Notes under the pieces: model-generated
Databases searched by the model: none
What the model was told of the DNA's origin: nothing
What the model saw: only the letters and a program-made list of their open reading frames with translations
Made by a program: the position numbers and the translations under genes
Assembly (NCBI GenBank): GCA_017614995.1
Contig: JAGAAX010000062.1
Span: 1 to 64,000, forward strand
Reading direction: 5' to 3'
Length of the DNA stretch: 64,000 nucleotides
Source of the DNA: Spirochaetaceae bacterium
GTDB taxonomy: Bacteria > Spirochaetota > Spirochaetia > Treponematales > Treponemataceae
Part shown: piece by piece, positions 4,564 to 6,587 of the stretch
Numbering within the stretch: position 1 is the first letter of the stretch
Layout of the letters: every line of letters starts with the position of its first letter

Positions 4564-5886
4564 TTAAGCGTTGATTTCAGTAATTCTTATACCGAATTTG
4601 TCATCAACAACAACGATTTCGCCATAAGCAATAATTTTGCCGTTTTTAATAACAGGGCTCGGATAACCGGCGTAAGTATTCAATTCAAGAAGAATCTTTT
4701 TGTGAATACTGCTGATTTCTTCCTCTGTATGGCAGCACGCGCCAAGCTGAATTGAAATATAATCTTCGTTTTCGTCGTAGCAAATGTCCGGCACGTCAGG
4801 CTCATCAAGAATGCGCATTCCGAATTTCTCATCCATAACGACAATTTCGCCATTGTGAATTACTCGGTTTTTATAAACAAGATTCAGAGGGTCATAATAC
4901 TTTTTGTCAAAAACAAGAATTTTGCCTGGTTCAAGCTTTACATTATCCGGGTTGAATCTTCCGAATTCAACAAACAGATTGTTCGCAATTTTCTTTGCAT
5001 TAATTTCACTTAAATACTGAAGCTCCGGCTCTTTCCAGTTAAAACCGAAAAAGCCAAGCGAACGGAGATTATCCATAAAAAAGTCGCTGAGCTGAATATT
5101 CATCACGCCTTCCGTTTCACCTACACGGAGGCTGTAAGAAACAAGACAGCACATCTGGTCGCGGCGCTGGTTCATTGTTGAGGGGTTAAATTTTGCTTCA
5201 CTGAAATTTTTAACTATCACAAGCCGCTGCTGTTCGGGCACATTTGCAAATTTTTCAGCGAATGCCTCATTCAACAATTTGATAAAATCCTTAATATAGA
5301 ATTCCCGCATAACATCAAGGTCAAAAGCCGTAATCAGCGGAAACTCTTTTGGGTTCTGCTTAATCAGAGCTTTGCCAATTTCCGGGTCAACCTCTACGAC
5401 AAAGCCTGAATCATTATAGCTGTAATCAAAAATAAAACATGAATGCGGAATGGAACGCTGAAATTCAGAATTTGTAAGCTGGTCAACGCCTGTTACAGAA
5501 ATCTGGCAGTTCTCGTTACGGCGGCCCGCAAAGTTTGCCTCAAGCTTCTGGCACAAATCAATAAAGAATGTAGAAACAGCTATGAAATCTTCGCGGCTCC
5601 ATTTATCAGGTCTTGTAAAATCATAATGCTTTATCGTTTTATCAGGGTAATCGGTGGCAAGCGTTGTGCATGACGGCGGAAATTCTCCGCTCATAATGTT
5701 CTCAACAGCAACATCAAGTGCATGGGCAAGCGCCGGAATAATTGAAACATCAGGGCAGCCGTCACCACATTCCCATTTGCTTACAGCCTTATCAGAGATG
5801 TTTATCTGTTCTGCAAGCTGCTTTTGAGTCAAGCCTTTTTTGGTTCTAAGTGCACTGATTAATCTGCCTGTCTTAATTGCATTCAT
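4564..5886 (-). CDS. XRE helix-turn-helix fused to FliM-like switch domain and two SpoA (FliN-like) domains
   Basis: A 440-residue fusion. Residues 1-67 are an XRE-type HTH (KGLTQKQLAEQI ... KAVSKWE). Residues 86-155 match the FliM core opening: HYDFTRPDKWS at 87-97, then VDQLTNSEFQRSIP at 134-147, like YDFxRPxKxS and DQLTxxEFxRS in FliM. Residues 160-285 correspond to the FliM middle domain. Two SpoA domains follow: about 295-359, with GEIVVMDEKFGMRI, and about 375-437, with GEIVVVDDKFGIRI, the latter closest to FliN. The CheY-binding N-terminal peptide of true FliM is absent, its place taken by the HTH. Start supported by GGGAG 6 bp upstream. No flagellar operon surrounds it. Could be a transcription factor using a switch-like oligomerisation scaffold; function unknown. 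Confidence 0.85.
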   Translation of the reverse strand: MNAIKTGRLISALRTKKGLTQKQLAEQINISDKAVSKWECGDGCPDVSIIPALAHALDVAVENIMSGEFPPSCTTLATDYPDKTIKHYDFTRPDKWSREDFIAVSTFFIDLCQKLEANFAGRRNENCQISVTGVDQLTNSEFQRSIPHSCFIFDYSYNDSGFVVEVDPEIGKALIKQNPKEFPLITAFDLDVMREFYIKDFIKLLNEAFAEKFANVPEQQRLVIVKNFSEAKFNPSTMNQRRDQMCCLVSYSLRVGETEGVMNIQLSDFFMDNLRSLGFFGFNWKEPELQYLSEINAKKIANNLFVEFGRFNPDNVKLEPGKILVFDKKYYDPLNLVYKNRVIHNGEIVVMDEKFGMRILDEPDVPDICYDENEDYISIQLGACCHTEEEISSIHKKILLELNTYAGYPSPVIKNGKIIAYGEIVVVDDKFGIRITEINA

Positions 5887-5939: not shown

Positions 5940-6401
5940 TTACGCTGCCGTCATGTTCACAATTTTTTCGATTGTGCAGTACGGCAATTCCAAGTGAATA
6001 TGCTTTCCATTAAGTTCAAAACAAACATTAAGCGTTACAAGACTGCCGATGTCGTTTTTAAAGCTTGCCGGGTCAGATTCCTTTATAAGCTTTTTCAGTT
6101 TATCAGAAATTTCAAGCATATCTGCTTCGCTGCCCTTTTCACCTGCAATTTTGCAGATATTTGCAATTTCTTTAACCTGCAAGTCCTTGTACTCGTCCAT
6201 CCATTCGCGGTCACAAATGTTATCAACAAAAGCTTTGTGCACGTTTCTAATAAAGAACATATTCACGCTGTTATAAGCTTCCGGCGTATATTCCGCCAAT
6301 GCACCTTCGTATGGAAATACAACAAGCTTTTTTCCTTCCAGCAGTTTTGCGCCGGCAGGAAGTTTTTCCAAAATGTTTCCATTCTCGTCTCTAGTCATCA
6401 T
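5940..6401 (-). CDS. hypothetical protein, possible FliM-middle-domain relative
   Basis: A 153-residue soluble acidic protein, 53 bp upstream of and co-directional with the HTH-FliM fusion, so probably in the same transcript. I do not recognise a named family. Its last ~40 residues (SLVTLNVCFELNGKHIHLEL then PYCTIEKIV) resemble the end of the FliM middle domain, where a strand of the type VTFEV...G is followed by NICIPY.TLEPI. That makes a second switch-like partner plausible but unproven. The start is preceded by AGGAG with a 6-bp gap; a second ATG follows at once. No signal peptide, no membrane segment. Confidence 0.7.
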   Translation of the reverse strand: MMTRDENGNILEKLPAGAKLLEGKKLVVFPYEGALAEYTPEAYNSVNMFFIRNVHKAFVDNICDREWMDEYKDLQVKEIANICKIAGEKGSEADMLEISDKLKKLIKESDPASFKNDIGSLVTLNVCFELNGKHIHLELPYCTIEKIVNMTAA

Positions 6402-6587
6402 ATTCTACTCCTAATTGCGGTATTGCAAGCCTGGCCAGCCTTGTGATTTTAGTATCATACGCTTTCACAAAAAAAATCACCCGACAGCCAGTGGAATTAA
6501 GTAGAATTCATGGTAGAATCAAGAATTTTTATACGCTTTCACTGCTAATTCTACCAGAAGTAGTAATGAAAGCGCAGCACCTTTTGT

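Follow-up and report, generated by a model that had tools for sequence, protein, structure and literature searches.

What would a DNA-binding helix-turn-helix (HTH) be doing in front of a flagellar switch protein? This question is raised by one gene in the window, the stretch of 64,000 nucleotides analysed here from a contig of a Spirochaetaceae bacterium, in which the preliminary description had placed an XRE HTH joined to a FliM middle domain and two SpoA domains. We have examined whether such a fusion is genuine, how far it has spread, which rotor features it has kept and what lies upstream of it, and we weigh below what the protein may do.

Architecture, authenticity and spread of the fusion

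A single unbroken ORF of 440 aa lies at the position given in the preliminary description (Table 1), and all the domains named there were confirmed above their Pfam cut-offs: HTH_3 at residues 11-60 (46.3 bits against 23), FliM at residues 88-271 (34.0 against 27) and FliMN_C/SpoA in two stretches (58.2 against 23.8). The NCBIfam model TIGR02480 (fliN) was matched at 86.3 bits, its cut-off being 84.05, and the SctQ profile TIGR02551 at 41.2 bits, under its cut-off of 100.8. Homology to FliM/SpoA, on which the description had staked its reading, was detected by profile comparison. With hhalign, residues 81-362 of a 28-fusion profile could be aligned to a profile built from 14 true FliM of treponemes (99.6%, E 9.6e-24), these alignments holding 28 of the 31 fetched fusions (A1) and 14 of the 18 true FliM (A4). 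Against solved structures the same fusion profile matched FliM (best E 6e-18), FliN (6e-14) and the P22 C2 repressor (1e-7). By its profiles the fusion is a member of the Cro/C1-type HTH regulators, and both SpoA domains of the window copy match the SpoA of FliY. Sequence profiles are the basis of the domain order given here, because the AlphaFold2 model made from three sequences had a mean pLDDT of only 29.9.

Table 1. Coordinates of the fusion gene, its domains and its upstream elements in the window
Feature	Position	Strand	Evidence
HTH-FliM-SpoA-SpoA fusion gene, 440 aa	4564..5886	-	ORF, Pfam, NCBIfam, profile comparisons
Second SpoA (FliN-type) domain, residues 377-438	4573..4758	-	Pfam
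First SpoA (FliN-type) domain, about residues 303-360	4807..4980	-	Pfam; matches FliY SpoA
FliM middle domain, residues 88-271, lacking the GGxG loop	5074..5625	-	Pfam, alignment
Linker, residues 68-87, without CheY/FlhG-binding motif in the window copy	5626..5685	-	Alignment
XRE-type helix-turn-helix, residues 1-67	5686..5886	-	Pfam HTH_3; P22 C2 and 434 repressor matches
153-aa ORF between operator and fusion, 53 bp ahead of the fusion	5940..6401	-	ORF; among fetched loci only in near relatives
-10-like hexamer GATACT, 18-bp spacer	6451..6456	-	Sequence
-35-like hexamer GTGATT	6475..6480	-	Sequence
Composite putative operator, half-site plus core dyad at -35, YTCTAC-N15-GTCGGGTKAC, 1 mismatch	6476..6506	-	Pattern search
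Two TTCTAC half-sites, direct repeat, 12 bp apart	6501..6518	-	Sole TTCTACYN{5,14}TTCTAC match in own genome

It had been considered that two separate genes were joined by a sequencing error. This is excluded by two MAG records that hold the fusion at 97% identity, one of them isolate RUG14308 (RUG presumably standing for rumen genomes), by full-length copies in many genomes and by the pattern of codon changes. In fact, the window copy differs from that of a near relative (L169) by 54 synonymous and 16 non-synonymous codon changes and from L170 with a dN of 0.011 and a dS of 0.218; the fusion gene has therefore been kept by selection. A phage or plasmid origin was rejected as well, since tblastn with part of the FliM/SpoA region retrieved no phage record and a single plasmid record, which was a Bacillus fliM. 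In the 80 viral loci listed, matches were limited to the HTH end (query residues 1-126 at most).

The survey across genomes that had been proposed revealed a family, present in 43 of 274 Treponemataceae genomes when broken or split copies (G050, G165, G173, G221, G226) are counted. Identity to the window copy is 97% in two genomes of the same genus and otherwise about 35-51%, over 3 genera; the carriers are some gut and rumen spirochaetes. In a phylum-wide draw of 392 genomes, 12 gave a match at E <= 1e-20, all of them being the window's own genome or members of the same family. Gene order around the fusions, clustered without naming the neighbours, is common to close relatives only, and a conserved partner gene was not found.

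Common origin and lost rotor features

In a tree of the FliM core and the first SpoA domain the 28 fusions form one clade (support 98/95), to which two HTH-less FliM-SpoA-SpoA proteins (L067, L068) stand as sister, followed by six more HTH-less proteins and then by the true FliM of the motor. The tree, which carries a long-branch warning, took in 28 of the 31 fetched fusions, 8 of the 9 HTH-less proteins and 11 of the 18 fetched true FliM; left out were the fusions L051 (broken), L053 (no start) and L056 (very like L045), and the HTH-less L069. With HTH-less proteins as the sister group, the HTH was joined to a tandem-SpoA paralogue and not directly to the motor FliM. The fusions have a common origin, probably a single event in which one of these HTH-less proteins, after leaving the rotor, acquired an XRE HTH as found in stand-alone XRE regulators of 192-202 aa.

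Judged from their sequences, the HTH-less FliM-SpoA-SpoA proteins are a separate switch-protein family in treponemes. Most of those in the tree (L066, L070-L074, L067, L068) carry one EIDxLL-type motif, and L067 and L068 carry two. At L069 (710-3160, plus strand) an 816-aa ORF holds UPF0227, FliM, two SpoA, FliG_M and FliG_C in frame, that is a FliM-FliN-FliG chain, whose start is perhaps placed too far upstream.

The GGxG loop of FliM contacts FliG. It was observed in 13 of 14 true FliM, in none of the 28 fusions and in none of the 9 HTH-less proteins, so that both groups have lost the known FliG contact. The EIDxLL motif at the FliM N-terminus, by which CheY is bound, occurs in 14/14 true FliM, 7/9 HTH-less proteins and 2/28 fusions, and is absent in the window copy as a CheY/FlhG-binding motif. 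On both of these tested features the fusion falls outside functional FliM as far as sequence can tell. Thus the claim that the protein follows FliM closely stands for the match over residues 81-362, yet not for the FliG-contacting loop nor for the SpoA domains with their likeness to FliY. Similarly, the HTH was said to replace the CheY-binding tail, which describes the window copy but not the family: two fusions (L063, L064) retain LTASEIEQLL/ITASEIEQLL between the HTH and the FliM part, and many copies of group a, to which the window copy belongs, show a remnant, LSQDVSG. The N-terminal motif would then still have been there when the HTH was added. For a CheC-like signal, which had also been suggested, no support was found. 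The active-site signature of the CheC/CheX/FliY phosphatases is [DS]xxxExxN, and a loose form of this pattern, sought irrespective of position, occurs in 4/28 fusions.

The genomes that carry the fusion look flagellated, with FliG_C in 43/43 and flagellin in 42/43, and the relatives retain a true FliM and a FliY in addition to the fusion; in the whole family of 274 genomes, FlhA is found in 260 and a FliM-type match in 249. The genome's true fliM, with which a comparison had been proposed, was not found in the window's own assembly, and the fliM-region DNA of a relative gave no match there either (a search without positive control). FliG and four flagellin matches are present in this assembly and its two nearest relatives have fliM, so that an assembly gap is the likely and simple reason; for the same FliG and flagellin matches, loss of the flagellum with the fusion as its last remnant, which the missing fliM and the truncated FlhA had suggested, was rejected.

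Some further flagellar remains and extras were noticed. FlhA is represented in the window's own assembly by a C-terminal piece only, a 483-aa ORF (L076, 9690-11141, contig C16) with in-frame stops upstream, which is either a degenerate gene copy or a cytoplasmic domain standing on its own. There are also additional small FliG_C proteins (L105-L124; 230-304 aa), up to several per genome, and those in G050 (C6) and G232 (C299) have an HTH-less FliM paralogue at a distance of about 10-15 kb. An HTH-fused FliG was not visible in the first 150 residues of the short FliG_C proteins inspected, and none of the four that were scanned had an HTH match.

Half-site array and promoter of the fusion genes

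Promoters of the fusion genes share an array made of at least one TTCTAC half-site, in direct repeat, followed by a core dyad, CTACG-N4-GTCGG or similar, that leads into GT(T/G)ACA, with a TATAAT-like hexamer 17-18 bp further on. In the window the array spans 6476-6518, ahead of the 153-aa ORF. The composite site (half-site and core dyad) was scored within 700 bp upstream, with ten shuffles as control. It was found with 0-2 mismatches in 29 of the 31 fetched fusion loci and with 3 in the other two (L038, L053), while the best matches of all nine HTH-less paralogues had 5-7 mismatches; the lowest score in the shuffles was 3, reached at two loci (L043, L069). Eight further fusion loci gave 0-2 mismatches in seven cases, and the eighth (L033) also carries the composite site, bearing in mind that promoters travel with the fusion gene and the loci are not fully independent.

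Searching whole genomes (24 carriers and 6 non-carriers) placed all 17 exact matches and 7 of the 8 one-mismatch matches upstream of fusions, and 23 of the 24 carriers have a composite match there. The remaining matches, mostly with two mismatches, were as rare as in the reversed-pattern control, and no second target emerged in these 30 genomes, array matches outside the fusion genes being no commoner than in that control. Moreover, 23 TTCTAC pairs were counted in 1.15 Mb, all upstream of fusion genes, against 1.8 expected in all. The broader TTCTACYN{5,14}TTCTAC search gave chance-level matches elsewhere in other genomes, and only the fusion promoters stood out. A self-limited switch could explain why no further target appeared, and so could targets bearing a single site, which these searches cannot tell from chance.

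Spacing within the array is regular and differs between two groups of fusions. In group b, TCTAC half-sites stand at -20 (11/11), -40/-41 (11/11), -61/-62 (5/11) and -82 (2/11) relative to the core, repeating every 20-21 bp or two helical turns; in group a they stand at -20/-21 (17/17) and -32/-33 (16/17), giving the 12 bp of the window's group. The -35/-10 spacer is 17 or 18 bp, and at least four of six TATAAT positions match in 32/35 loci, against about 21% of random positions; L037 and L038, with a spacer longer by one base, are not part of the group-a promoter consensus. The core dyad is centred some 7 bp ahead of the -35 hexamer, a position compatible with class-II-type activation or repression.

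The 153-aa ORF and the fusion likely form one operon. It was asked whether this ORF is a FliM fragment, as its residues 119-149 resemble FliM 201-231 by eye; hhalign points to the same segment but with a probability of 6.3%, so that the likeness has no statistical support. A second, separate HTH stretch adjoins the fusion at L054 (after the fusion) and at L033 (679-882), in genomes G210 and G188.

The array can be compared with what precedes stand-alone XRE genes that share this type of HTH, such as those of 202-aa proteins (L155-L158) whose HTH is about 50-59% identical to that of the fusion. Among eight loci having this HTH type with another C-terminal part, a TCTACG-N4-CGT-type dyad was seen by eye near the start in seven, and TTCTAC within 250 bp upstream in none. 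The core dyad is therefore tied to the type of HTH, and the upstream repeats accompany the fusion to FliM/SpoA.

Possible roles of the fusion and its relation to known systems

Taking sequence, promoters and relatives together, the fusion is probably a transcription factor acting on its own promoter, with cooperative, array-type DNA binding through the switch scaffold. Its XRE HTH would recognize the CTAC half-sites, its FliM middle domain together with the two SpoA domains would provide oligomerization, and several copies would sit side by side on the half-site array that ends at -35, with a signal perhaps acting on the FliM/SpoA part. We infer that the protein binds the array, that its SpoA/FliM part makes this binding cooperative and that it thereby regulates its own expression. 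For binding as more than a dimer owing to the switch module, the chief argument is the presence of the upstream repeats at fusions and their absence at stand-alone XRE genes. Of the earlier ideas, a repurposed oligomerization scaffold fits best, given the tandem half-sites at fusions only, the loss of the FliG loop and the SctQ-like SpoA pair; the wider interpretation is partly supported as a whole, and is borne out by the domains where it joins a DNA-binding HTH to a FliM/FliN scaffold. According to PMC4832279, the tandem SpoA1-SpoA2 of SctQ/Spa33 forms an intramolecular pseudodimer and elongated arrays. Perhaps, and here we are doubtful, the fusion even polymerizes along DNA by contacts of the C-ring type, SpoA pseudodimers stacking so that each HTH reads the next half-site, and in motif-bearing copies CheY-P or FlhG at the EIDxLL peptide would control the polymer. 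If this is true, it would be a new class of mechanism, a motor switch turned into a genetic switch.

Other explanations deserve to be weighed against cooperative autoregulation. Some other regulator that acts on the fusion promoter, such as a stand-alone XRE protein, may be the one that uses the array. A related possibility is that the switch part is mere stable filler or a solubility or dimer module, an ordinary XRE dimer occupying the core dyad and the upstream repeats serving another factor. XRE regulators usually act as dimers, and the core dyad beside the -35 is the one also seen at stand-alone XRE genes; we nevertheless regard this as improbable, for the upstream half-sites, present at fusion genes only, equal the core in conservation, and the FliM/SpoA core itself has conserved residues (e.g. 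D135, N139, E141, E307, G309, R310). That the protein joins the C-ring as a minor subunit, its HTH only setting its own level, would suit the full FliM and FliN-type layout in organisms with flagella, but is hardly credible with the FliG-contacting loop missing throughout and true FliM and FliY retained in relatives.

A link of motor assembly (also proposed at the outset) or chemotaxis to transcription is conceivable, since the carriers look flagellated and two copies retain the CheY/FlhG motif. In its full form the FliM part would bind CheY-P, FlhG or FliY, switching DNA occupancy, so that the state of the motor sets transcription. The motif found in most HTH-less sisters and in two fusions speaks for this, as does FlhG, which elsewhere binds the FliM N-terminus and controls FlrA/FleQ, linking FliM to flagellar gene transcription in polar flagellates (PMC12826062). 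Yet the motif is gone in 26/28 fusions, including the window copy, and the GGxG loop in all; neighbourhoods, clustered without naming their genes, are common to close relatives only, and no flagellar target promoter was found. On balance we think such coupling unlikely.

We know of no characterised transcription factor built on a flagellar switch scaffold. If autoregulation through this scaffold is true, the fusion would be the first one known, a rotor part turned gene regulator, and the predicted binding site makes the idea testable with a single protein and a DNA fragment of 80 bp. Flagellar gene control in spirochaetes is poorly understood, and the fusion is a candidate for connecting switch-type proteins to transcription in these bacteria. 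No description of an HTH-FliM fusion was found in the literature, including the available parts of PMC4832279, PMC12826062 and PMC6978683, subscription papers and preprints being outside this scope; the nearest printed idea found there is FlhG linking FliM and FlrA/FleQ (PMC12826062).

Compared with known systems, the fusion appears as an XRE regulator whose effector module has no precedent in the literature covered. It resembles FliM in the middle domain and first C-terminal SpoA, including YDFxRPD and VDQLTxxEFxRSIP, and is unlike it in having an HTH in front, a second SpoA behind, no GGxG, no EIDxLL (window copy) and a place outside the flagellar operon. With SctQ/Spa33, the FliM-FliN-like fusion of the injectisome C-ring, it shares the tandem SpoA1-SpoA2 in one chain, whereas here a FliM middle domain precedes the pair, an HTH is added and TIGR02551 stays under its cut-off. 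Stand-alone Cro/C1-type XRE regulators (L155-L158) have the same HTH type and the same core dyad by the -35, and the fusion differs from them by a flagellar switch module as its effector part and by the extra upstream half-sites. Finally, in the FlhG-FlrA/FleQ system the link is a separate ATPase, whereas in the fusion predicted DNA binding and the switch scaffold are united in one chain.
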